Origin: Desulfamplus sp.
GTDB lineage: Bacteria > Desulfobacterota > Desulfobacteria > Desulfobacterales > Desulfobacteraceae
Length of the DNA stretch: 64,000 bases
NCBI GenBank assembly: GCA_015232455.1
Contig: JADFZQ010000012.1
Location: forward strand, 31,223-95,222
Direction of reading: 5' to 3'
The position numbers and the translations under genes were made by a program. Position 1 is the stretch's first letter. Each line of letters opens with the position of its first letter. The notes below the pieces were generated by a model that did not search any database, was not told the DNA's origin, and saw nothing but the letters and a program-made list of their open reading frames with translations. Shown here piece after piece: positions 38,911 through 63,793 of the stretch.

Positions 38911-41900
38911 ATGAAAAAACGATTATCAAATTTGCTTATACTTTTTTATGTTTTTTTCGCTGTTTTTATTCTCCAAGAGTCGCCTTGTATTGCAGAAGAG
39001 CCTGCTGGAAAATTGATTTTTTCAGAAGGCTCTGTTCTCTTTTCTCTTGATAAGGGTAACTCTTGGAGTGCTGTAAATCCAGCAATGGAGTTTCCTGAAG
39101 GTGCATATATAAAAGTTGGTTCTGACGGACAAGCAGCTTTGATGTTAAATGATAGATCTCAAATACGTCTCTCTGCTGGTTCTGTGCTATATCTAAAAAA
39201 ACGAGGTTCTGCTCCTGATGAAAAGATTAGTAAATCGGGAGTTCTTGAGATGTTTTCTGGTAAATTATGGTTTAGAAATAAACGAAAAGGTTCAAAGCCT
39301 GTGTTTGAAACACCTGTGATTTCAGCAAGTATAAGAGGAACTGAGATGGCTTTAGATGTTGCTGATGACGGTTCTTCCAATATTACAGTGCTTGAAGGTC
39401 AGGTAAGATGCACAAACTCACAAGGCGAGGCTATAATTGCAAGAGGTGAAGGTGTTACATCAAAAAAAGGAGAATCCCCCAAAATAATAAAATTATTAAA
39501 ACCAGAAAAGAGCGTCCAGTGGCTTCTCTTGACACCAGATATAAGAGGACCTGCTGATGAAGATAATAAAGTAGAAAATAAAATTGAAAAAAGTGGTATC
39601 TCTGCTGCTGAAAGAGCTATGGAGCTTTTTATTCAAGGAGAAGAAGGCTCACTTGAAACAGCACAGAATGCAGTAAAACTTGCTCCAAACAGAGCTTCAA
39701 CCCATGTCGCACTAGCAACTATTTTGCAATCAACAGGAAAATTTGAAGAGGCATTAGAGAATGCACAGAAAGCACGAACTTTTGATCCTATTTCTGTACC
39801 AGCTTTAGTAAGAACTGTTGAGCTACTTTTGGGACTTGATAAAGTTAATAATGCGGAAAATTTAGTGTTATCTTATAACAATTCAAATAAAGATGGAGCA
39901 GATAAAGATGTTAGAATATCTATGTTACAAGGCTATATCTCACTTATAAAACTTGATTCAAAAAGGGCTGAAAAGCTATTTAGAGAGGCGATTGAGCAAA
40001 AAAGAGATTTGTCTTCTGCTTACTTAGGGCTTGGACTTGCATTATATCATCAGAAAAGAACTGCTGAAGGTCTTGAAAACATGGAAAAAGCGTGTCTTTT
40101 AGACCCTCTTGCAGCATATCCTCACAACTATCTTGCTAAAGCTCAATACGAGCTTGGAGAAAGATATGAAGCTGAAATTGAGTTAAAGCGTGCGTCAACT
40201 CTTGATCCAAATGATCCAACTCCTCATATCTATCTTGCAACCATTCTTGCAGATACCTACAGAGCTGGCGAAGGTATAAAAGAGTTAGAAAAATCTATTG
40301 CACTTAATGATAACAAGTTGATGAGTCGTTCTGGTTACCTTCTTGATCAAGATAGAGCCTCAAAAAATATCTCTCTTGCGTGGTCTCTTGTAACTATGGG
40401 GCTTTATGAATGGGCAGACGCAAAGGGCGATCAAGCTGTTTGGGACGATGAGTCAAACAGCAGTGCATATCTATTTAGGGCATCAAAATCAGCAATTATG
40501 GGTCAAGTTGACGCTGATACAATTGGAGATATGAAAAGAGCTGACCTCTTAAAGCCAGTTAATGCTAATACTTACGTAAGCTACACTGATTATCAGAATC
40601 TTCTTGAAACTCCTGAAATTAAAGGAAATTTTAACTTAAATATTGGCACAGATAATACAGGAGTTGGTATAGTAAATCTAAACGGTGGCAATTCAACGGT
40701 TGCGTTTAATGGCTCTGGAGGCTATAGAACTACAGACGGACCTTTTGAAGGAACGGGTAAATCATCTTCTCAAGGTATGGTAAGTGTAAAAAAAGAGGTT
40801 GCTTATGGTCATCAGGTGCTTGCAGAAGCTCGTGCTATCAAAGGAAATATTGAAGATATTTCATCATGGCAGGACGCTCTTGTCGAGCCCACAAATATTG
40901 ATAATGACTACGATATGCTTTCAGGCTCAATTGGTTACCACTGGCATCAAGGGGCTGGGCGTGATTTAATGGCTCTTGTGCAGTCTCAAAAAAACGATAC
41001 TGATATAGATGAGTTTACATATAAATATTTGAACCCTGTATACGGGACTATTTTTAACCATAAAAATTCTATTAAAGATGGGGAGATATTTAGAAGTGAA
41101 ATTGTAGAGTTGTTTCAACTCACTAATCAAAAACTTGGAAAACATGCATTTACTGTTGGGATATCTCAGTCAATGAATAGCTCTTCATTGACTGAAAACG
41201 ATGAATCATTTTTTGATGAAAATGATTTGAAACCTTATTATTCAGATAAATCTAATAAAGATAATCCTGACAAAAAAGAGGATAAAATTTTTATAAGGGA
41301 TATATGGGGATTATCTGAAGATTTTAAATTTGATGTAGGTATAGCATGGTGCAATCTTGAGAATATATTTTCATTAAATGGTGAAAATGACGGAAATCAA
41401 CTTGAGGATAGAGATGAGTGGCTTCCGCATCTTGGTTTTATGTGGCAAGTCTCCTCTTCAGATACAATAAGAGCTGGATATTTCAAAGAGTCAGAGCCTG
41501 ATTATTTAAGTGGAACTTTGCAGCCAGTTGAAATGGCAGGATTTTCAAGAATTTTTGGTTCTCCTCAAGGAACTTTGACAGATTTTTATGGTGTAGGTTG
41601 GGATAGACAATGGGCTTCTCAAATTTTTACACGAGCAGAACTCTATCATAAAAATAGAGAATTTCCAGATATGTTCACATCTCACGCTGGTAACTTAGGC
41701 ACTACAGAACAAAGACTTAATCGTTTATGGAATGAAGATACACAAGATATTGCCCGCTTGACATTGGAATATCTTATAACTGACCGTTTGGCAATGGCTC
41801 TGACATATCAATTCACAGACCACAATACAGAGAGTGGTGTTGATAGAAATCGCATAGACAATGATTTTGGCACAACTTTTACTTGGGTTCACCCTTCTGG

Positions 41901-42156
41901 TATCAGGATACAAAATAGCTGGTGGTATATGAATCAGAAAGAAAAGAGTGGTTATCTAAATCCAGTTAATGAAGATTTTATAATTGCGAGCATATCTGCT
42001 GAAAAATCTCTATTGGATAAAAAATTGCTTCTTGTTGCTAAATGGGAAAATATTTTTGATGAAGAATATACTTATCTTATCTCTGACACTACGGAAAGCT
42101 CTCAGCTTCCGTGGCAGGGCTCTTTTGCAAGTATTGGGTTGCAGTGGAATTTTTAG
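38911..42156 (+). CDS. FecR-domain / TPR / C-terminal outer-membrane beta-barrel fusion protein
   Basis: 1081 aa; signal peptide; FecR-like region (TPVISASIRGTEMALDVADDGSSNITVLEGQV); TPR array; barrel-like C-terminus ending LQWNF. Confidence 0.82.
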   Translation: MKKRLSNLLILFYVFFAVFILQESPCIAEEPAGKLIFSEGSVLFSLDKGNSWSAVNPAMEFPEGAYIKVGSDGQAALMLNDRSQIRLSAGSVLYLKKRGSAPDEKISKSGVLEMFSGKLWFRNKRKGSKPVFETPVISASIRGTEMALDVADDGSSNITVLEGQVRCTNSQGEAIIARGEGVTSKKGESPKIIKLLKPEKSVQWLLLTPDIRGPADEDNKVENKIEKSGISAAERAMELFIQGEEGSLETAQNAVKLAPNRASTHVALATILQSTGKFEEALENAQKARTFDPISVPALVRTVELLLGLDKVNNAENLVLSYNNSNKDGADKDVRISMLQGYISLIKLDSKRAEKLFREAIEQKRDLSSAYLGLGLALYHQKRTAEGLENMEKACLLDPLAAYPHNYLAKAQYELGERYEAEIELKRASTLDPNDPTPHIYLATILADTYRAGEGIKELEKSIALNDNKLMSRSGYLLDQDRASKNISLAWSLVTMGLYEWADAKGDQAVWDDESNSSAYLFRASKSAIMGQVDADTIGDMKRADLLKPVNANTYVSYTDYQNLLETPEIKGNFNLNIGTDNTGVGIVNLNGGNSTVAFNGSGGYRTTDGPFEGTGKSSSQGMVSVKKEVAYGHQVLAEARAIKGNIEDISSWQDALVEPTNIDNDYDMLSGSIGYHWHQGAGRDLMALVQSQKNDTDIDEFTYKYLNPVYGTIFNHKNSIKDGEIFRSEIVELFQLTNQKLGKHAFTVGISQSMNSSSLTENDESFFDENDLKPYYSDKSNKDNPDKKEDKIFIRDIWGLSEDFKFDVGIAWCNLENIFSLNGENDGNQLEDRDEWLPHLGFMWQVSSSDTIRAGYFKESEPDYLSGTLQPVEMAGFSRIFGSPQGTLTDFYGVGWDRQWASQIFTRAELYHKNREFPDMFTSHAGNLGTTEQRLNRLWNEDTQDIARLTLEYLITDRLAMALTYQFTDHNTESGVDRNRIDNDFGTTFTWVHPSGIRIQNSWWYMNQKEKSGYLNPVNEDFIIASISAEKSLLDKKLLLVAKWENIFDEEYTYLISDTTESSQLPWQGSFASIGLQWNF

Positions 42157-42229: not shown

Positions 42230-45200
42230 ATGGCTAACATTAATCAACGTTCTAAATGTTTTATCGTTTTTATTTTTCTTGCCTGTTTTGCCACTTCGGC
42301 ATTTGCTAACTCTACAGGTAGTATTTCAGGTACTATTTATGAAAGCGATGGAGTTATTCCAATTACAGGTAATATTATCAATGTTTCACTATATAAAAAA
42401 AATATATGTGATAACTCGATGACATGGCTGCAAACGGTTAGCACTAACACATCATACGGCACATACACGTTTACAGGAGTTAATCAGGGTAGTTACTATC
42501 TAATTGCAGAACCTTACAGTTCTAATCATATAAAAGAGTGGTGGGCAGTAACTCTAAGCCAGCCTATTCAAAGCAATGCTCAACCATTGCAGCTCAATTC
42601 CGGAGATGCACTTACCGGAATTAATTTCCAATTGAATAAAGCAGCGACTCTTTCCGGCATACTCTACAGACCTGATGGGACAACAGCCGTTACAGGAGAA
42701 AACTATATTATAAATATATTTTTAGGAACAAGCTGTAGCAATAACCCCTTTGCAACTACTGTGGCCAGTTCATACGATGGAAGTTTTTTCTTTGATAAAT
42801 TACCAGGAGGGACCTATTATATCAGTGCTAAACCAGCACTTCCTAATACTTACCCTTATGACCAATATCTTGGTCAATGGTGGACATCTTCTATAGGTGC
42901 TTATAGTTGCAGCGATGCCCAGAGCATAGCTGTAGCTTCAGAAGCAAACATTACTGGTAAAAATTTTATTCTTAATCAGAGTACTATAATTTCAGGAACT
43001 TTTTATGAATCTGACGGTACAACGCCTATTACAGGAAAAAATCTATTTGTTGAAATTATAACTGGCAGCCCGTGTTCTGGATATGCTGTGTTTGCTCAAG
43101 TTCCCATAAATACAAATGATGGCCACTACAAGTTCCCTGATATTCCAGCGGGACAATATTATTTAAGAACATCAACTAATGGCAATTCAAATCATATGAA
43201 TGGCTGGTGGGCGTCATCTGGTAACAGTTTGCCTTGCAACAGTGCCGAACCTATTACGGTATCTCAGGGACAAATATATTCAGGCAAGGATTTCAGACTT
43301 AATCAGGGTTCTACCATTTCAGGGACTCTTTATGAGTCCGACGGAATAACTCCAATCACAAACACAGGAAACTACTTAGAAGTTGAACTTATAACAGGTA
43401 GTCCCTGTGGAACAAATAATACGTTTTACTCTGCACCTGTCAATCAAACTACTGGTACATATTCATTTACGGGTCTTCCATCAGGACAATATTATTTGAA
43501 AACAAATATATATACCTATTATGGAAAACATTTAAATGGCTGGTGGGCATCATCTGGTACCAGTGTGCCTTGCAGCAGTGCTGAAATGGTTGATGTTTTG
43601 CAGGTGCAGACATACTCTGGTAAAGATATAAAACTGAGTAGAGGAGGTACAATATCAGGTAGAGTATATGCAAGTGATGGTACAACTCCTATAACCACGG
43701 GGTGCGATATCCAAGTATTTAGTGGCTCTTCGTGTACCCCTACTTTTGTAAAAGGAACGAGTAGCAACATTTCTGATGGCACTTATTCAGTAAGCGGACT
43801 TCTTCCAGGAACCTACTATATTAAAGCAAATGGATATAATAATTCTGTTTCAGAATGGTGGAATCTTTCTGCAAGCAGTTTTGATTGCGGCGGTGCAGGT
43901 TCCATTACCATTACGGGTCAAGAGACTTTGACAAACAAGAATTTTCAGCTTGATTCAGGTGGTGCAATATCTGGCACACTCTTTGGAGCTGATGGAGTAA
44001 CGCCGCTAACATGTGACTCATCTTCGATAGAGGTATGGTCAGGAGATCCCTGCGGAAGTTCTCAATATATAGCGAGTGTGAGTGTAAATGATCAAACAGG
44101 TGCTTATTATCTTACTGGTATTCCTGAAAATACTTCGGTCTATCTGAAAGCATATAGCAACCACTACCAGCAATATGTTTGGTGGACATCTTCGGGCAGC
44201 TCCTCTCTTTGCAGTGGAGCAGAATATCTCACCCTTACAAATGGGCAAAATCTTACTGGCAAAAACTTACAAATGGGAGTTGGAGGGTCATCTATATCTG
44301 GAACACTATATCAGAGTGATGGCATTACACCTATTACAGGAATAACTGTCCCAATAATACTCTATTCAGGCTCTGCATGTAATTCAATGACACAGATTAG
44401 GTCTATCTCTTCTACCTCTTCAGGAACTTATAATATTTCAGGACTTTCTGCAGGTACATATTTTTTAAAAACTGAAAGTAATACCTACATAAACGAATGG
44501 TGGGGTTCTCCAGCGAGCAGTGTTGATTGCAGCGGAGGGCAATTCATAACGGTCGGGACAAACGAGCAGGTTACAGGAAAGAATTTTCAGTTGGATCTTG
44601 GTGCCTCAATATCAGGTACACTCTATCAAAGTGACGGTACTACACCCCTTATCGGTACTGCTGTAACAATAAACGTCTATTCAGGTTCACCCTGTGGAAC
44701 AATTCAGTTAGTAAAGTCTGGCTACAGTAGTTCATATTACGGAACTTATAACATAACAGGGCTTCAACCTGGCACCTATTATATTCAGACGAATAATAGT
44801 AATTACACCAGCGAATGGTGGGCATCTCCAAGCAGTAGCTTAAGTTGTGCTTTAGGCCAATCAATAACTGTGGGAGCTGGACAACAGATAATAGGAAAGA
44901 ATTTTCAGTTGGAGAGCGTTAGCGATGGCTCAATAGCCGGAACACTTTATCAGACCGACGGCATTACACCTATTACTTACGCTAACGTAGAAATTCACGT
45001 TTATTCAGGTAGCCCATGTGGAACAACCCAACTTGTTAAATATGGGTATTCAGACTCTTCTGGTAACTATCTTATATCAGGACTTGTATCTGGCACATAT
45101 TTTCTCCAAACTTCAAGTAGTAATTATATCAGTGAATGGTGGGCATCTCCAAGTAGCAGCGTAAGTTGCGCTTCAGGTCAATCAATAGCTGTGGGAGCTG

Positions 45201-47446
45201 GACAACAGATAACCGGAAAGAATTTTCAGTTAGAATCTTATACTCCTCCACCCGTAACACCAGACAACGGTGGAACTACAAATCCGCCTGTAACTCCACC
45301 AGACAACGGAGGCACAACAAATCCGCCGGATAATAAACCAGCTGATATTACAGACATAAAAGATGTTAGTGATGTTATTAGTGATGTTAACAACACAACT
45401 GATGCAAACAATGCTGTAGAATCTTTGACTGACGATATTAATGTAATTAAGAATGAGATACCAACCTCAACAACAACTCCCCCTTCTGATGATCTTGTAG
45501 AAGCAATTAATACGACTACACAAAATATTGGAACTTTAGTAGATGTTTCTTTGAATCTTTTACAGGAGGGAACTATTAGTGTAGAGCAAGCATTAAAACC
45601 TGTAGAACTTCTTACTGGTATAATTGAGCTTGGTGCACAAGTAGCTGCTGCAGGCGGTGCAATAAGTATTGAACAAGTTGCTGGAAGTATTGAATCTGTA
45701 GAAGGAATTGTTACTGAAATTGCCTCTCAAAATGCAACATCAGAACAAATGAGCAATATTGCTGGCAATATAAACAATATTTTGGGTAATATGCCAGACA
45801 TTATGGAAGCTGTTTTGATAACAGATGATGTTATGAATATTCTTGGTTCTATAAAAGGGCTTGCAGGTGCTGGTATAGCATCCTCAATTGCAGGTAATAA
45901 TGAACCATCACAAACTGTTGACACTCTGGGGTCCATTGTTGTCAAAGGGTTACAAACAGCTTCAGATGCAGGTATCATTCACGATACAGGAAGAATAATA
46001 AGTGGTGCTGGAGATATTGTGGATCATGCAATAAATGTGTTGCAGACAGGCACTAATCAACAGACAGTTCTACAGGACACATTAGCTCAACTTCAAGTTG
46101 AGATAAGTGAGATGTTTGGTCAAACAGCTTCAAATATAAAAGATAAACCTGTATTGAACTCTTTTGCAGTCTCATCAGACGGAAGTGTCAGCCTGAAGGA
46201 TTTTAGCTATGTTATGGATAATGCTTCTGGTCTTACAACATCCATGATTAAAGCAAAATCTGTTTTAGGCTCCAAACTTTCAGGTTCAATGCAATCATTA
46301 AGCCGTGAAACTTTGAAGAATGTTCTGCCAGCATTTATTCCAGCTAACAAGTTCGCATCAACAGAACAAGATAGCGATATACAGAAACTTTTGACCAACT
46401 ACCCGCAGCTACTTAATGAGGTAATAAAGTTTGCATCTATAAATCTGACATCTGGAATGCTTATAACAAAAGATAATATTTCAGAGATTATTAACAATAA
46501 CACATCCCTTACCCAATCAGAGAAGACAAGATTAATCAAAGGGTTGCCTGAACTTCCATCGTTTGATCAAGATATTATACAATCAGACTCTACTGCACTA
46601 TCCCTTGTTGACCTTTTAAGTAAAGAGGTTGAAACATTGCTTCCTGGCACAACCGTTGAAGTTATCTCTTCAAAAGGTCTATCCCTTGTGGTTATGTTGA
46701 AAAATGAAGCAAAAGGGATAAAGATACCACTTTATATTCAAGATGCTCGTGTAGTATCTAATATTATTCCTTCAGGTCTTCATGCTTTACCAGAAGGCAC
46801 TTTTATTCTGGTTCGCAATGGAATTGCAGGTATTATAACACCAGCACCATTGGATGCTGTAGATACTCTTTTGTCTGCTGATGGTTTGCTAAACATTGAG
46901 AACCTTTTTGGTTCTAACAAAAAAGAAATTTCAGATGTAAAGATTAATAACTCTGGCAATCTTACCATCAAATTTAAAGATGGAACGAAATTTTCAGGCT
47001 CTTTTGGATATGGAGTATCAAAAAATGGAGATGGAGAATTTGATGCTGGAACGTCAAGTTTTGAAATGCAAATGACTGATCCTGCAAGCGAAGCATATTC
47101 AGTTTTGGTTACATATAACGATGGCACAACACAGACCCTCTCACCTTCGATTGCAGCTATTGAGCAGTTGGTAAAAGTGTTAGATACCCTTGCTGCTGGA
47201 AGTTATACCCTTGATAAAGCAACAGGTATTTTCACTGTCTTGGGTATGCGTTTTAAGCCGAGCTATTTTATAGAACCTATTACTGCAAGTGAAGAAAGTT
47301 GGTTTGTAGCCAATAAAGATGGATATGGAATCGCGTGGGAAACCAATGACTACAATAATGATGGTGCTGTAGATTTAAAGATGTGGACATCTGAGATACT
47401 TGGGATAGTTAAAGGAAAACAAATAATTTATACTGTTATACAGTAG
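42230..47446 (+). CDS. Giant secreted protein: nine SGTLYxSDGxTPIT repeat domains + Pro-rich linker + shared C-terminal region
   Basis: 1738 aa; signal peptide; nine ~105-aa carboxypeptidase-regulatory/SdrD-B-like repeats; TPDNGGTTNPP linker; C-terminal ~650 aa similar to the 47561 CDS. Confidence 0.85.
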   Translation: MANINQRSKCFIVFIFLACFATSAFANSTGSISGTIYESDGVIPITGNIINVSLYKKNICDNSMTWLQTVSTNTSYGTYTFTGVNQGSYYLIAEPYSSNHIKEWWAVTLSQPIQSNAQPLQLNSGDALTGINFQLNKAATLSGILYRPDGTTAVTGENYIINIFLGTSCSNNPFATTVASSYDGSFFFDKLPGGTYYISAKPALPNTYPYDQYLGQWWTSSIGAYSCSDAQSIAVASEANITGKNFILNQSTIISGTFYESDGTTPITGKNLFVEIITGSPCSGYAVFAQVPINTNDGHYKFPDIPAGQYYLRTSTNGNSNHMNGWWASSGNSLPCNSAEPITVSQGQIYSGKDFRLNQGSTISGTLYESDGITPITNTGNYLEVELITGSPCGTNNTFYSAPVNQTTGTYSFTGLPSGQYYLKTNIYTYYGKHLNGWWASSGTSVPCSSAEMVDVLQVQTYSGKDIKLSRGGTISGRVYASDGTTPITTGCDIQVFSGSSCTPTFVKGTSSNISDGTYSVSGLLPGTYYIKANGYNNSVSEWWNLSASSFDCGGAGSITITGQETLTNKNFQLDSGGAISGTLFGADGVTPLTCDSSSIEVWSGDPCGSSQYIASVSVNDQTGAYYLTGIPENTSVYLKAYSNHYQQYVWWTSSGSSSLCSGAEYLTLTNGQNLTGKNLQMGVGGSSISGTLYQSDGITPITGITVPIILYSGSACNSMTQIRSISSTSSGTYNISGLSAGTYFLKTESNTYINEWWGSPASSVDCSGGQFITVGTNEQVTGKNFQLDLGASISGTLYQSDGTTPLIGTAVTINVYSGSPCGTIQLVKSGYSSSYYGTYNITGLQPGTYYIQTNNSNYTSEWWASPSSSLSCALGQSITVGAGQQIIGKNFQLESVSDGSIAGTLYQTDGITPITYANVEIHVYSGSPCGTTQLVKYGYSDSSGNYLISGLVSGTYFLQTSSSNYISEWWASPSSSVSCASGQSIAVGAGQQITGKNFQLESYTPPPVTPDNGGTTNPPVTPPDNGGTTNPPDNKPADITDIKDVSDVISDVNNTTDANNAVESLTDDINVIKNEIPTSTTTPPSDDLVEAINTTTQNIGTLVDVSLNLLQEGTISVEQALKPVELLTGIIELGAQVAAAGGAISIEQVAGSIESVEGIVTEIASQNATSEQMSNIAGNINNILGNMPDIMEAVLITDDVMNILGSIKGLAGAGIASSIAGNNEPSQTVDTLGSIVVKGLQTASDAGIIHDTGRIISGAGDIVDHAINVLQTGTNQQTVLQDTLAQLQVEISEMFGQTASNIKDKPVLNSFAVSSDGSVSLKDFSYVMDNASGLTTSMIKAKSVLGSKLSGSMQSLSRETLKNVLPAFIPANKFASTEQDSDIQKLLTNYPQLLNEVIKFASINLTSGMLITKDNISEIINNNTSLTQSEKTRLIKGLPELPSFDQDIIQSDSTALSLVDLLSKEVETLLPGTTVEVISSKGLSLVVMLKNEAKGIKIPLYIQDARVVSNIIPSGLHALPEGTFILVRNGIAGIITPAPLDAVDTLLSADGLLNIENLFGSNKKEISDVKINNSGNLTIKFKDGTKFSGSFGYGVSKNGDGEFDAGTSSFEMQMTDPASEAYSVLVTYNDGTTQTLSPSIAAIEQLVKVLDTLAAGSYTLDKATGIFTVLGMRFKPSYFIEPITASEESWFVANKDGYGIAWETNDYNNDGAVDLKMWTSEILGIVKGKQIIYTVIQ

Positions 47447-47483
47447 TTAATTATAGCAATTCTAATTTAGAATCATTAGATAG

Positions 47484-47523
47484 AACGTCAATAATTAGGC
47501 TAATTTTCCTAATTATTGACGTT
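47484..47523 (+). terminator. Hairpin terminator
   Basis: Perfect 16-bp stem aacgtcaataattagg / cctaattattgacgtt followed by GTTTTTGG. Confidence 0.7.
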
Positions 47524-47560
47524 GTTTTTGGTAATAATTAGAGAGTGAGAGGAGTATTTT

Positions 47561-50500
47561 ATGATTAATTTTTTTGATAATTTGGTTTGGTTAATAAGGA
47601 TTGCAGTAATTTTATCCACTTTAACTATTATACCATCTTTAGAGGCTTTTGAACCTATTTCAGCTGGGAATGACTATATACTTATCAAAAAAAATGATAG
47701 CACTGTTTGGGGTTTGGGTTGCAATCAGTTTGGAAATTTAGGCAATGGTGTTGTATTACCAGGTGGTAGTAGCAGCACATTAGTGCAAGCTGTAGGCTTA
47801 GGCGGCCTGTCAGGGATAAATATTAGTGCAGTAGAAACGGGATTTAAAAGCTCAATTGCATTAGATGATACAGGACAAGTTTGGACTTGGGGATACAATT
47901 CTTCTAAGCAGCTTGGTGATAATACAACAACTGATAGAAGTACTCCAGTTATTGTGTCTGGATTACCAACTATTTCAGATGTAAGCATGGGTTTAAATTA
48001 TACTGTTGTGCTTAAAAGTGATGGTAGCTTATTATCATGGGGAGACAACACTTCTGGTCAGCTTGGTGATGAAACTAATAATAATAGCGGTATTCCTGTA
48101 TCAGTTAGAGGATTATCAAGCATAATAAGCATCTCTTGCGGTGCTTCTCATACAGCAGCATTAAAAGAAGATGGAACTGTTTGGACTTGGGGAGATAATA
48201 CTTCTGGACAGCTTGGTGATGGAACTATTACAAATAGCAATATCCCTATTCAAGTAACAAATTTGTCAAATATCAAAAAGATTGCTGCTGGTGATGGTTT
48301 CACAATGGCATTGAAAGAAGATGGAACTGTTTGGACTTGGGGAGATAATACTTCTGGACAGCTTGGTGATGGTACAACTTCAGGCAGTAATATACCTATT
48401 CAGGCAATGAATTTATCAAATATTCTTAAAATTGCTGCTGGAGATGCTTTTGCAGCCGCATTGAGAGATAATGGTACAATCTGGACATGGGGAAACAATT
48501 CTTATGGGCAACTTGGAGATAATACAACAATTGATAAGAGTATTCCTTCACCAATAACGGGGATATCAAGTGCTACTTCAATTGCAGCAGGAAATGGTCA
48601 TTTAGTTTTTTTGAAAAATGATAATACCTGCTGGGCTGTTGGAAACAACAATTTTGGACAGTTAGGTGATGGAACTACTACCAATAGTAGCATACCTGTT
48701 CAGGTAGTAGGTTTATCAATATCTTCTCCTCCCACGGTTTTAACAGGCATTACTAACCCATCACCACCAAATTCTACTACATTTAATGGCAGTATTAATC
48801 CAAATGGTTTGGATACAATATATTACTTTGAATATGGAACTACATCTGCTTATGGCTATATAACATCAACTCAAAATACTGGCGTAAGTACATCTTTTAT
48901 TTCAGTTGCTATAAATCATTCAGGTTTAGACCCTAATAAGATATATCACTATAGATTAGTTGCAAATAACAGTGCAGGAAATCAAATAGGAGATGATAAA
49001 AAGTTTATTATCTTTGATTTTTCTAAATTAGATTCATTTGGAAATTTACTTCCCAACAATGCATTGAATTGGACAATGGTTAGAGATAATATCAATGGGA
49101 TTATATGGGAAGTAAAAAATGATCTAGATTATAGTTCGATTTATACGAATCCTCATGACTCAGATAATACATATACTTGGTATGATAGCAACCCGGTTAC
49201 AAATGGCGGGGATCAAGGTGTTTCAGGAACTGAAACAGATACTGAAGATTTTATAACAGCAGTTAATAATGAAAATTATGGTGGTTTTAACAATTGGCGT
49301 ATGCCAACAATAGACGAAATGCGTTTAATTGCTAATGTTTTTATTTATGATCCTGCCGTTTATAATCAATTTTTTCCAAATACTTCATCTGGATATTATT
49401 GGACATCTACAACTTACAGTATTTTTGCAGCTTATAAGGTTAATATTTTGGATGGCTATGATGGAACAAATGGTAAAGGCAATAGCTATCACGCTATTGC
49501 AGTCCGGTCAGGACCAGTTGTATTTACAAATAGTGCAACTGAAGTTACATCAAGCACAGCAACATTAAATGGTTCGGTGAATCCCCATGGTCTTTCAACT
49601 AACTATTATTTTGAATATGGCATAAATGTAAATTATGGAAGTGTGACGCCAACAATATCAGCAGGTTCTAATACGACAAATGAAGTTGTTTCAACAGATT
49701 TAATTTCGCTAATGCCAAATACAATTTATCATTTTAGAGTGGTTGCTATAAACAGTGCGGGTACAACCAATGGTAACGATCAGATATTTACGACAACATC
49801 TACCCCTATCACTCATACAGCAACAACAACATCAGCAAATGGAATAACCTCAAATTCAGCTACATTGAATGGTTCAATAAATCCCAATGGTGATGATACA
49901 AACTGGTATTTTGAGTATGGTTTAAGTATTTCTTATGGTTTTACATCTCCAATACCAAGTCAAAATGCAGGTTCTGGAATAACTTTAATTCCAGTAGCAG
50001 CAAATTTGATTGGTCTGATTCCCAATACCACATATTTTTTTCGATTAGTTGCGACTAACAGCACTGGTAACATCTATGGTGATGATATGACATTTACCAC
50101 TCTTGGTACTACAGGAGATAATGGAGGAATAGTAACGCCACCAGATAATGGAGGAATAGTAACGCCACCAGATAATGGAGGAATAGTAACGCCACCAGAT
50201 AATGGAGGAATAGTAACGCCACCAGATAATGGAGGAATAGTAACGCCACCTATTACTTCACCCGATGATACCAAACCTCCTGTGATAGATGATCCTACAG
50301 ATATAATTGATATTAGTGATGATATTGACAATATTGAAAATGAAGAAGATGTTATTAAAATAACCGACAATATTGGAAATGAAATTGATTTTATTCAAGA
50401 AAATATACCTGACAATTCAACCCCTCCTTCTGACGCATTTGTAGAGGCAATTAACACGACCACTCAAAATATCGGAATTATTCTTGAAGAGTCTATTAAT

Positions 50501-52399
50501 CTTTTTAAGGAAGGAACCATAAGTTTAGAACAGGCCTTAAAGCCATTGGAGCTTCTTGATAGCATAATTGGTATTGGGGCAAATGTAGCAAAATCAGGAG
50601 GGGCTGTAAGTCTTGACAGTGTTGCTGGAAGTATTGGAAAGATTGAAGGAATTATAAATGAAGCTATTTCTCAGAACGCAACATCAGAGCAGATGAACAA
50701 AAGCTCTAACAATATAAATAATATCTTAGGTAATATGCCTGATATTATGACTACTGTTTTAATAACAACTGATGTTATTAAAATTCTTGAACCTATTAAA
50801 GGACTGGTTGCTGCTGGTATAACTTCTGCAGTTGCGGGCAGCAACGATCCTGTAAAAACAGTTGAGAATATAGGAGATATTGTTGTCAAGGGTTTGAGTG
50901 AAGCATCAGATGCTGGAATGATTTTAAATACTGCTAAAATTATCAATAGTGCTGGAGAAATTGTCAACTATGCAGTCAACGTATTAGGAACAGAAACTAC
51001 AAATAATATAGTTATTGGCAATACATTTGAACAACTTCAGATTGAACTAAGTGAAATGATAGATCAGACAGCATCAAATATAAAAGACAAACCCGTATCT
51101 AACTCTTTTGCAGCATCATCAAGCGGAAGTTTTACCACTAACGATTTTAACTATGTTATGGATAAAGTTGCTGCTCTTACAACTTCAATGGTTAAGGCAA
51201 AATCAGTTCTAAATACTACACTGACAGGCTCTATGCAGAATTTAAGCCGTGAGACGCTAAATAACATTTTGCCCTCTTTTATTCCAAAAAATAGATTTGC
51301 ATCGATTACAGAGGAATCAGATATACAGAAACTTTTTACCAATTACCCGCAGTTACTTAATGAGGTAATTAAAATTGCCTCTGTAAATTTGACATCTGGA
51401 ATGCTCATAACAAGAGATGACATTTCAGAGATTATTAAAAATAACACTTCTCTTACCTCAGCAGAGAAGACAAGATTAATAAAAGGGTTACCCGAGCTTC
51501 CAGCGTTTGACCAAGACATTATACAATCAGGTTCTACTGCACTATCCCTTGTTGAGCTTTTAAGTAAAGAGCTTGAAAATCCAAAATATCAACTACCTAA
51601 TACAACTATTGAAGTTATATCTTCAAAAGGTCTGTCTCTTATGGTTATGTTGAAAAATGAAGCAAAAGGGATAGAGATACCACTTTATATTCAAGATGCT
51701 CGTGTAGTATCTTCAATTATTCCATCTGATTTGTATCGTTTGCCAGAAGGACCTTTTATTCTTGTTCGCAATGGAATTGCAGGTATTATCACACCTGCAC
51801 CATTGGATGCTGTAGATACTCTTTTGTCTGCCGATGCTTTGATAAACATTGAGAACTTGTTTGGTTCTGACAAAAAAGAGATTTCAGATTTAAAGATTAA
51901 TAATTCTGGCAATCTTAATATCAAGTTTAAAGATGGCAGCAAGTTTTCAGGCTCTTTTGGATATGGAACATCAAAAAATGGAGAGGGAGATTTTGACGCT
52001 GGCACATCAAGTTTTGAACTGCAAATGACTGATCCTGCAAGCGAAGCATATTCAGTTTTGGTTACATACAGCAATGGCACAACACAGACCCTCTCACCTT
52101 CAATTGCAGCTATTGAGCAGTTGGTAAAAGTGTTAGATACCCTTGCTGCTGGCAGTTATACCCTTGATAAAACAACAGGTATTTTTACTGTCCTAGGTGC
52201 ACGTTTTAAGCCAAGTTATTTAATAGAACCAATTGCGACAAGTGAGCAGACTTGGTTTAAAAACAATAAAGATGACAATGGAATTGCATGGGAAACTAAA
52301 GACTATAATGGTGATGGTGCTGTAGATTTAAAGATGTGGACAGCCGGAATACTTGGAATAGCTGAAGGGAAGCAGATAATTTATACTGTTGTGCAATAA
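47561..52399 (+). CDS. Giant secreted protein: seven RCC1 repeats, Fn3-like domains, DUF1566/Lcl-like domain, DNGGIVTPP linker, shared C-terminal region
   Basis: 1612 aa; seven xLKxDGTVWTWGxNxxGQLGDGTT units; YYFEYGxTxxYG domains; C-terminus paralogous to the preceding CDS. Confidence 0.87.
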   Translation: MINFFDNLVWLIRIAVILSTLTIIPSLEAFEPISAGNDYILIKKNDSTVWGLGCNQFGNLGNGVVLPGGSSSTLVQAVGLGGLSGINISAVETGFKSSIALDDTGQVWTWGYNSSKQLGDNTTTDRSTPVIVSGLPTISDVSMGLNYTVVLKSDGSLLSWGDNTSGQLGDETNNNSGIPVSVRGLSSIISISCGASHTAALKEDGTVWTWGDNTSGQLGDGTITNSNIPIQVTNLSNIKKIAAGDGFTMALKEDGTVWTWGDNTSGQLGDGTTSGSNIPIQAMNLSNILKIAAGDAFAAALRDNGTIWTWGNNSYGQLGDNTTIDKSIPSPITGISSATSIAAGNGHLVFLKNDNTCWAVGNNNFGQLGDGTTTNSSIPVQVVGLSISSPPTVLTGITNPSPPNSTTFNGSINPNGLDTIYYFEYGTTSAYGYITSTQNTGVSTSFISVAINHSGLDPNKIYHYRLVANNSAGNQIGDDKKFIIFDFSKLDSFGNLLPNNALNWTMVRDNINGIIWEVKNDLDYSSIYTNPHDSDNTYTWYDSNPVTNGGDQGVSGTETDTEDFITAVNNENYGGFNNWRMPTIDEMRLIANVFIYDPAVYNQFFPNTSSGYYWTSTTYSIFAAYKVNILDGYDGTNGKGNSYHAIAVRSGPVVFTNSATEVTSSTATLNGSVNPHGLSTNYYFEYGINVNYGSVTPTISAGSNTTNEVVSTDLISLMPNTIYHFRVVAINSAGTTNGNDQIFTTTSTPITHTATTTSANGITSNSATLNGSINPNGDDTNWYFEYGLSISYGFTSPIPSQNAGSGITLIPVAANLIGLIPNTTYFFRLVATNSTGNIYGDDMTFTTLGTTGDNGGIVTPPDNGGIVTPPDNGGIVTPPDNGGIVTPPDNGGIVTPPITSPDDTKPPVIDDPTDIIDISDDIDNIENEEDVIKITDNIGNEIDFIQENIPDNSTPPSDAFVEAINTTTQNIGIILEESINLFKEGTISLEQALKPLELLDSIIGIGANVAKSGGAVSLDSVAGSIGKIEGIINEAISQNATSEQMNKSSNNINNILGNMPDIMTTVLITTDVIKILEPIKGLVAAGITSAVAGSNDPVKTVENIGDIVVKGLSEASDAGMILNTAKIINSAGEIVNYAVNVLGTETTNNIVIGNTFEQLQIELSEMIDQTASNIKDKPVSNSFAASSSGSFTTNDFNYVMDKVAALTTSMVKAKSVLNTTLTGSMQNLSRETLNNILPSFIPKNRFASITEESDIQKLFTNYPQLLNEVIKIASVNLTSGMLITRDDISEIIKNNTSLTSAEKTRLIKGLPELPAFDQDIIQSGSTALSLVELLSKELENPKYQLPNTTIEVISSKGLSLMVMLKNEAKGIEIPLYIQDARVVSSIIPSDLYRLPEGPFILVRNGIAGIITPAPLDAVDTLLSADALINIENLFGSDKKEISDLKINNSGNLNIKFKDGSKFSGSFGYGTSKNGEGDFDAGTSSFELQMTDPASEAYSVLVTYSNGTTQTLSPSIAAIEQLVKVLDTLAAGSYTLDKTTGIFTVLGARFKPSYLIEPIATSEQTWFKNNKDDNGIAWETKDYNGDGAVDLKMWTAGILGIAEGKQIIYTVVQ
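50117..50250 (+). repeat. 27-bp tandem repeat x5 (gataatggaggaatagtaacgccacca)
   Basis: Five near-identical tandem copies encoding DNGGIVTPP. Confidence 0.97.
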
Positions 52400-61465: not shown

Positions 61466-63793
61466 ATGTTGACTGACACGTTATTGCTAAAAGCAAGACA
61501 AGGAGAACTTAATATTACTGGGCTTATTTCAGAAGCTGAAAAACTTGCCTCTGAAGGACTGATAAAGCAAATGATCACTCTTTATCGTGAATGGATAGAA
61601 AATACAAAGTCTCCATTGGTCTATGCAGCATATTTCAACTTAGGAGTTGCATTAAGCAACTCTGGAGATATGATCGGGGCTGAAGATGCTTATCGTAGAG
61701 CTATATTATTCAGGCACGATTTTATTCAGGCACGCTTTAATTTAGGTCTAATTTTTGAACTTCAAGATAGAGTTAATGAGGCTTTAGAGCAGTGGAAACT
61801 TATTCTAAATGCTGGGGATTCAATTTTATCAACAGAAAAAAATATCCACTTAATGGCTTTAAGTAAAATAGCACAATATCAACCTGATTTTAAAATACCA
61901 TCTATTAAAGATAAACCTTTAGAGTTATCACAATCAAAATTAGAAGAGATCAACCAAAAAACCTTGCTTGCCTTAGAACTACAAGAACAGGATAATATTG
62001 TTGAGGCAACAAAGCTATTTAAAGAGATTTTGCTTGTAAATCCTGCCCACTTTCCTTCATTATATTCGTTAGGTGTTATTGCATCTAAAAATGAAGAGAA
62101 TACAGAGGCTTTGTCTTTAATAGAAAAAGCAATTCAAGTTATACCAACTTATGCACCAGCTCATTTTGCAAAAGCTGTAATATTACAAGCTCTGAAAAGA
62201 TACAATGATGCGTTGGTTAGCTACCAACAGGCATTAACGATTAATCCTGATTATCTTGATGCCATGAATAATCGTGGTAATCTCTTACATGAGATGAAGC
62301 AATATGATTTAGCTTTTGCAAGTTTTGCCGAAATTATCAAAAGGAACCCAAATGCTGACAAAGCTCTATCTAACTCTGGTATTATTCTCACGTTAAAGAA
62401 TCAGTATGAAGAGTCTATTGACTTTTTTGATCGACTCCTTAAAGCAAACCCTGATTTTGATTATGCACGTGGTCTGCTTTTCTATTCGCAACTGCATTGC
62501 TGCGATTGGTCAGAGTATGACAAACACAGTGAGCTGATTAATAGAGGTATTCAAGATGGTAAAAGAGAGTGTAAGTCATTGGCATTTATGGCATTTTCAA
62601 ACTCTGCAAGCGACTCCTTAGAGTGTGCTAAGATATTTGCTTCCCATTTCTTTCCAAAAAAATCCAAAACTTTGTGGAATGGAGAACGCTACAACCACAA
62701 AAAAATCCGTATTGCATACGTCTCTCCCGATTTTAGACAGCACCCAGTAGGTCATCTTATGGCTGGAGTTATTGAAAACCATGATAAATCAAAGGTTGAG
62801 ACAATAGCTATCTCGATTGGTATTGATGATAAAAGTATTTTACGAAACCGTTTTATAGCTGCATTTAGTCAATTTTACGATGTTCAGATGAAAACATCGT
62901 TTGAAATTGCACAGTTAATCAGAAATCTTGAGGTAGATATTTTGGTTGATTTAGCTGGTTATACCGCAGACTCAAGAACAGATATTTTTGCCTATCGTCC
63001 AGCTCCTGTACAGGTAAACTATTTAGGCTATCCTGGTACAATGGGGCTTGATTATATAGATTATATATTAGCTGACCGTTATGTGATTCCAGAAGAGCAT
63101 AAGAGATTTTACACTGAAAAAGTTGCCTATATGCCCCATACCTATCTTCCAACTGATGGAAATTTAAAAGTTTCTGAACGAACTCCAACAAGAGAGGAGA
63201 TGAATCTTCCGCCTCAAGGTGTGATCTTTTGCTCCTTTAACCACGATTATAAGATCAATCCACAGATGTTTTCAGTTTGGATGCGTATTTTAGAAAAAGT
63301 TGAAGGAAGTGTTTTATGGCTTATGAAGTTAAATGAGGCAGCAGAGCGAAACCTTAAAAAAGAGGCTAAAAACAGGGGAATTAATCCAGATCGTCTTATC
63401 TTTGCAACACGAATTCCACTTATTGAAGACCATTTAGCTCGCTATCGTTTGGCTGATATATTCTTGGATACTTCACCATACAATGCCCATACTACGGCAA
63501 GCGATGCTCTATTTGCTGGATTACCAGTTTTAACTTATATGGGAGATACTTTTTCAGCAAGAGTTGCTGGAAGCCTTTTAAATGCAATAGGAGTGCCTGA
63601 ATTAATTACACATTCACTTGAGGAGTATGAAGAGTTGGCTGTTAAACTTGCGTTAAATAGTCAAATGATTTCTGAACTTAAGGAAAAACTTATAGCAAAT
63701 AAAGAGAGTTATCCTCTATTTAAAACAAAGCTGTTTGCCGAGAATCTTGAGGAAGTGTTTATAGAAATAGTAAATTTAGAAACTGCATTGTGA
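61466..63793 (+). CDS. TPR-containing SPINDLY/GT41-like O-linked N-acetylglucosamine transferase
   Basis: 775 aa; N-terminal TPRs; RIAYVSPDFRQHPVGHLM, VDLAGYTADSRTDIFAYRPAPVQVNYLGYPGTMGLDYIDYILADRYVIP. Confidence 0.93.
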   Translation: MLTDTLLLKARQGELNITGLISEAEKLASEGLIKQMITLYREWIENTKSPLVYAAYFNLGVALSNSGDMIGAEDAYRRAILFRHDFIQARFNLGLIFELQDRVNEALEQWKLILNAGDSILSTEKNIHLMALSKIAQYQPDFKIPSIKDKPLELSQSKLEEINQKTLLALELQEQDNIVEATKLFKEILLVNPAHFPSLYSLGVIASKNEENTEALSLIEKAIQVIPTYAPAHFAKAVILQALKRYNDALVSYQQALTINPDYLDAMNNRGNLLHEMKQYDLAFASFAEIIKRNPNADKALSNSGIILTLKNQYEESIDFFDRLLKANPDFDYARGLLFYSQLHCCDWSEYDKHSELINRGIQDGKRECKSLAFMAFSNSASDSLECAKIFASHFFPKKSKTLWNGERYNHKKIRIAYVSPDFRQHPVGHLMAGVIENHDKSKVETIAISIGIDDKSILRNRFIAAFSQFYDVQMKTSFEIAQLIRNLEVDILVDLAGYTADSRTDIFAYRPAPVQVNYLGYPGTMGLDYIDYILADRYVIPEEHKRFYTEKVAYMPHTYLPTDGNLKVSERTPTREEMNLPPQGVIFCSFNHDYKINPQMFSVWMRILEKVEGSVLWLMKLNEAAERNLKKEAKNRGINPDRLIFATRIPLIEDHLARYRLADIFLDTSPYNAHTTASDALFAGLPVLTYMGDTFSARVAGSLLNAIGVPELITHSLEEYEELAVKLALNSQMISELKEKLIANKESYPLFKTKLFAENLEEVFIEIVNLETAL

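Follow-up and report, generated by a model that had tools for sequence, protein, structure and literature searches.

A C-terminal domain on exchangeable heads is coupled to one clade of FecR-TPR-barrel proteins in Desulfobacterota

Results

The window analyzed in this study is a stretch of 64,000 nucleotides from a draft genome of Desulfamplus sp. (4.35 Mb, 98.5% complete; contig JADFZQ010000012.1, positions 31,223 to 95,222). It contains three consecutive genes on one strand (+), a barrel gene followed by ORF A and ORF B. The first (38911..42156, +) encodes a FecR-TPR-outer-membrane beta-barrel protein of 1081 aa, a putative translocon or anchor partner as judged from its signal peptide, domain matches, and synteny. 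ORF A (42230..47446, +; 1738 aa) and ORF B (47561..52399, +; 1612 aa) are separated by a terminator-like hairpin with a 16-bp stem (47484..47523, +), defined by its match to a consensus only, which looks strong and may result in separate transcription or attenuation of B. A protein combining TPRs with a glycosyltransferase family 41 (O-GlcNAc-transferase-like) domain is encoded 9 kb downstream of B (61466-63793).

The product of ORF A comprises a signal peptide, a head, a Pro-rich linker, a stalk (residues ~1035-1359; 45332..46306, +), helical in the model, and a C-terminal domain, hereafter CTD (residues 1360-1738; 46307..47443, +), whose last ~300 aa are conserved across genera. Its head (42311..45226, +) is built of nine repeats of ~105-112 aa each, matching CarboxypepD_reg, SdrD_B, and SpaA and starting near residues 33, 143, 255, 364, 476, 581, 690, 795, and 902; seven were located with a regular expression and two by eye. 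The orthologue of A in another genome (G005, L020:11011-15630) is ~200 aa shorter, apparently within the head, so the number of repeats in A-type heads may vary between orthologues. In ORF B, the signal peptide is followed by an RCC1 propeller, an Fn3-like domain, Lcl_C (residues 506-649), a second Fn3-like domain, a linker, a stalk (50279..51250, +), and a CTD (51251..52396, +). According to family matches, RCC1 repeats occupy six stretches of this head (47693..50104, +). The nine beta repeats of A and the RCC1/Fn3/Lcl head of B, both proposed in a preliminary description of this locus, are supported by these matches.

Beyond the heads, the two proteins are closely related: A 1011-1738 and B 870-1612 share 525 of 744 aligned positions (71%; 867 bits, E = 0, blastp), with the PPDNGG linker included in the shared region, and at the DNA level identity amounts to 79% over 1981 bp. 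Between the heads, blastp gave matches at chance level only. The preliminary description of twin proteins with unrelated N-termini and a near-common C-terminal region therefore holds, the region being slightly longer than claimed, and both proteins contain the tail motifs quoted there and end in KQIIYTV[I/V]Q. The tail consists of two parts, the helical stalk and the CTD, with different histories. A and B are the only two proteins with this tail in the genome from which the window comes.

Scans against Pfam and NCBIfam assigned families to the heads and left the shared tail outside any curated family; the earlier suggestion that the tail may be a new domain is consistent with this result. Two partial resemblances were rejected, since neither covers the domain: a MiiA motif/atypical Rib at A 1562-1587 was found in 5 of 19 CTDs (MiiA passes the cut-off on the isolated domain only, and aRib stays below it), and FG-GAP matches (E ~0.07-0.14) were found in 2 of 19. 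A search of the CTD profile against PDB sequences gave chance-level matches only (E >= 0.013), a tblastn search of plasmids gave none, and our literature search retrieved no paper describing this CTD family. An AlphaFold model of the tail from three sequences (pLDDT 51) was too poor to assign a fold to the CTD, while the first ~150 residues of the stalk reached block pLDDT values of about 70-89.

Among 58 relatives, the tail was found in nine genomes, all of one genus. Profiles built from the last 300 residues of the CTD (A1, later A3 with 19 sequences) extended this range to a second genus of the family (G073, G079, and G081), to another family of the order, in which one genome (G151) contains four long CTD copies and fragments, and to another class, in which two genera of one family carry it (G429 and G781). 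The tail is thus present well beyond the two proteins of the window: in 14 further genomes, nearly all drafts, belonging to at least three families and two classes of the phylum, with one more genome from a further family giving a marginal match (G288, E 1e-4). These counts are lower bounds, as a 396-genome sample of the phylum was searched with the narrower profile A1 only. The profile search detected no CTD in seven congeners of G073 (G025, G030, G034, G083, G092, G093, and G095).

Eight columns of profile A3 are invariant over its 19 sequences, mostly within the terminal motif DxN...D...G.Q; the part conserved across genera ends in DxNxDGxxDLK...GKQxxYxV. The CTD is always terminal: in all intact proteins the stop codon lies 0-6 residues past its end, and the only larger gap, of 15 residues, belongs to a frame-broken copy (G008 C268). 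In that copy (L027:10634-14047 and an adjoining frame), profile positions 15-211 are matched in one frame and 201-281 in another, which reflects either a decaying gene or a sequence error. According to a simple hydrophobicity heuristic, which is not a trained predictor, nearly all CTD proteins inspected begin with a signal-peptide-like segment; a 702-aa copy in G005 is without one.

CTD proteins are modular. Across genomes, Pfam distinguishes about nine types of head on this domain: CarboxypepD_reg/SdrD_B repeats; RCC1 with Lcl_C and Fn3; Lcl_C alone; Lcl_C with Calx-beta; Calx-beta after an Fn3-like stretch; PKD; MopE metal motifs with PKD; divergent InlB B-repeats; and HYDIN-type Ig. These are typical extracellular kinds of domain. 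For one protein of G151 (L104), no head was recognized, as the region preceding the CTD gave no family matches. InlB B-repeat heads are carried by two giants of G001 (L028:4058-13795 and L029:1827-12647), each followed by a near-identical gene of ~510 aa (MTKFPYGIADFKTV...). The proposal that a common tail carries exchangeable heads is therefore well supported across several families, with the CTD always at the C-terminus and a tail swap observed (see below); the suggested role of the tail in toxin delivery was rejected, since none of the heads scanned contains a toxin domain.

The swap is visible when A is compared with its G005 orthologue. Sliding identity between them is 84-98% (mostly ~97%) over A1043-1343 and 72-92% past residue ~1360, i.e., down to the level of paralogues, whereas at the same point the identity of A to B rises from ~70% to 81-93%. 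Sites uniting A with the G005 protein fall from 144 of 153 (A1040-1200) to 14 of 72 (A1395-1500), with a maximum chi2 of 230.9 at A residue 1360 (permutation maximum 17.5, n = 2000; p <= 0.0005). Synonymous divergence changes in the same way across the junction, dS increasing from 0.19 to 0.47 between A and the G005 orthologue and decreasing from 0.99 to 0.36 between A and B. A lowering of synonymous divergence by codon constraint was rejected as an explanation for the similarity of the CTDs, because the comparison of A with its orthologue moves in the opposite direction at the same point. The identity shift, the maximum chi2, and dS together show that exchange or conversion between tails has affected the C-terminal ~380 residues separately from the stalk and the head; recombination has homogenized the CTD, and neither the stalk nor the head. 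The junction coincides with the SRETL motif, one of those quoted in the preliminary description.

The barrel protein of the window contains, after its signal peptide, a FecR domain (67-166), TPRs (250-445), and a region resembling TonB_dep_Rec_b-barrel (658-858), the latter match being below the curated cut-off (22.3 vs 27 bits). Its terminal residue is Phe, as in all ten barrel proteins aligned; a C-terminal Phe is also typical of outer-membrane barrels assembled by BAM. A beta-barrel fold is predicted from these weak Pfam matches and the terminal Phe. The AlphaFold model (two sequences, pLDDT 28) was too poor for a fold, and the profile of the barrel protein gave only TPR cross-hits among the PDB matches listed.

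In the window, the barrel gene directly precedes a CTD gene on its 5' side, as it also does in G004, G005, G008, and G009, the last with two such pairs, in which the CTD genes are apparently split over contigs (C106/C80 and C73/C132), as judged from where the reading frames end. The same arrangement occurs, at 40% identity, in the other genus of the family (G073, G079, and G081). In G151 (C138 and C85) and G429, the barrel gene is located in the neighborhood of a CTD gene, the G429 reading frame being in two parts (668 and 413 aa), which may reflect a frameshift or sequence error. Other CTD genes are distant from a barrel gene (G005 C166, G429 C10, and all of those in G781), and the ratio of barrels to CTD clients is 1:2 in the genome of the window, G005, and G429, and 1:at least 3 in G781.

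In the class, 390 genomes were searched with a profile (E <= 1e-40), and 46 of them contain members of the barrel superfamily. Ten of the 46 have a best match above 1190 bits and all ten encode a CTD; in the other 36, the best match is at most 410 bits and none encodes a CTD. The score gap alone is biased, because the barrel profile was seeded with CTD-linked loci. The second class provides an independent check, as its genomes G781 and G429 were outside the seed: strong barrels occur in 2 of 46 genomes, exactly these two, which are likewise its only CTD genomes (chance of coincidence 1/C(46,2), i.e., about 0.001 if relatedness is disregarded). In a tree of 42 barrel sequences, 12 of the 13 with a CTD link form one clade (SH-aLRT 100) spanning both classes and met in CTD genomes only, and barrels of the same classes without a CTD link, including others of the class of G429, fall outside it. 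The exception is a long-branched barrel of G151 (L101). The CTD is thus coupled, in genomes and in phylogeny, to one barrel clade, and the neighbor link indicated in the preliminary description is upheld by synteny, co-occurrence, and phylogeny. Some genomes depart from this pattern: G001 (97% complete) encodes two CTD proteins, 3245 and 3606 aa long, and a full-length FecR-TPR-barrel was found neither in this genome nor in G002 (72% complete) and G003 (63% complete). In G001, either a second partner exists or the CTD functions independently of the barrel.

Discussion

We put at about even the chance that A and B are surface proteins exported via Sec and that their CTD serves as a recognition module for the FecR-TPR-barrel protein encoded upstream. 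The CTD appears to be a tag used in a route of surface display not described before, and the barrel most likely exports or anchors the proteins carrying it, which would involve binding of the CTD, translocation or anchoring, and a surface location of the head. In such a pathway, Sec would carry the CTD protein into the periplasm, the periplasmic FecR/TPR part of the barrel protein would capture the CTD, and the barrel would pass or anchor its client, the head being displayed outside. Variable extracellular heads would thus ride on a common stalk and a CTD of ~300-380 aa, and recombination may keep the tails alike while the heads diverge because one barrel serves several clients. Of the anchoring or secretion tail suggested in the preliminary description, the modular build and the coupling to a barrel stand as observed, and secretion or anchoring itself is our prediction.

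Another, rather unlikely explanation is trans-envelope signaling, with the barrel protein acting as a receptor and signaling through its FecR/TPR part to a CHASE2 cyclase, and with the CTD protein as an extracellular ligand or co-receptor rather than cargo. It draws on the presence of CHASE2-cyclase genes adjoining CTD-linked barrels in six genomes (G073, G079, G081, G151 (C138), G429, and G781; the cyclase domains were scanned in G079, G151, and G429, and the other genes were named by sequence similarity), as well as of CHASE2-like genes, named from sequence, beside several barrels without a CTD link. The Burkholderia BiofilmReg operon, in which a FecR gene neighbors a CHASE2 kinase gene, offers a precedent for the pairing (PMC5192318), although the present loci differ from it in that FecR forms one protein with TPRs and a barrel, CHASE2 forms one with a cyclase, and genes for CTD clients are a new element. 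In contrast, neither the window nor the Desulfamplus-type loci inspected with intact flanks have a CHASE2 or cyclase gene beside the barrel, yet barrel and CTD occur together there, and signaling alone leaves unexplained why several clients share a homogenized terminal domain on unrelated heads. Since the barrel superfamily pairs with CHASE2-type genes also where no CTD is linked, its ancestral role may be signaling; in our reading, an older FecR/CHASE2 envelope-sensing unit had one branch later tied to CTD proteins. The loci L106 (G429) and L128 (G781) share the order CTD gene, GAF gene, and second GAF-like gene, but only in G429 are the two GAF genes separated by the CHASE2 and barrel genes; in G781 these are absent from that place and the barrel is on another contig.

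It is also possible, though improbable, that the barrel exports polysaccharide, as do PgaA, BcsC, and AlgK/AlgE, exopolysaccharide porins that likewise combine TPRs with a barrel, and that the CTD binds the polymer and holds the heads in an extracellular matrix. Some genes near CTD genes fit this idea: they encode Wzz-like (G429 and G781) and glycosyltransferase-like (G079 and G081) proteins, all named from their sequences and not by family search. However, synthase or polysaccharide genes do not adjoin the barrel in the Desulfamplus loci, and the barrel protein gave generic TPR matches only and none to the PgaA or BcsC families. In both G429 (L107:2386-12119) and G781 (L130:3577-10343), a CTD gene heads a conserved block of three further genes and the Wzz-like gene, which suggests a link to polysaccharide export. 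Least probable is that the tail is simply a domain conserved within an adhesin family that duplicated recently and has only locus ancestry in common with the barrel, as the tandem of A and B, the synteny partly inherited within one genus, and the barrel-free CTDs of G001 might indicate, since the coupling is seen repeatedly, across several families and in both classes, in differing neighborhoods, and with a single barrel clade.

The proposed recognition of the CTD by its barrel partner invites comparison with known secretion systems. Type XI secretion systems (T11SS; Slam/NilB, DUF560) employ a TPR barrel and cargo in which the N-terminal domains vary and the C-terminal ones are conserved (PMC8406197, PMC12282271), and similarly place a gene for a TPR and outer-membrane barrel protein beside cargo genes. 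In contrast to them, the barrel described here has an extra FecR domain and its clients are very large. PF04575 (DUF560) was absent from the matches listed for the window barrel (E up to 1) and its ten homologues. TPRs precede the barrel in a Slam-like manner (TPR_2 and others in all ten members), but such repeats are common to other families too, and TPR_Slam itself appears as a generic TPR cross-hit (E = 0.02). None of 19 CTDs has a Pfam match to TbpB_B/lipoprotein_C, the 8-stranded barrel at the C-terminus of Slam cargo. The type IX system (T9SS) of Bacteroidota resembles the present one in joining a Sec signal peptide and a conserved C-terminal domain to many unrelated heads; it differs in phylum and in using a multi-protein machine, whereas a single TPR-barrel partner is proposed here. 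No Por-type sorting domain was found in the CTDs, and a Por_Secre_tail match inside the head of A (E = 0.0075) is below the cut-off. In these family searches, the barrel/CTD pair showed the defining features of neither T11SS nor T9SS.

For two-partner secretion (T5b), POTRA and ShlB/FhaC domains are absent from the barrel protein and the N-terminal TPS domain of clients from A and B; for type I export of RTX adhesins, A and B have no RTX match and carry instead Sec-like signal peptides, according to the heuristic. The weak match in the barrel region recalls TonB-dependent receptors, which combine a plug domain with a 22-stranded barrel and from which the protein differs in having no plug-domain match, with FecR and TPRs at the N-terminus instead.

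Conclusions

We propose, as a possibility we rate somewhat below even, that Desulfobacterota possess an undescribed CTD-guided system of outer-membrane export or anchoring, in which a single FecR-TPR-barrel protein acts as a dedicated translocon for giant clients with freely swapped heads. To our knowledge, little has been described of the way in which sulfate-reducing bacteria move their giant surface proteins across the outer membrane. The CTD tag and its linked barrel constitute a two-gene candidate route that is directly testable, and the CTD profile flags clients in unannotated genomes. The terminal-domain swap suggests that heads and tags are already exchanged naturally. If confirmed, this would be a CTD-guided display system outside Bacteroidota, where T9SS is found, and outside the DUF560 barrels of T11SS.
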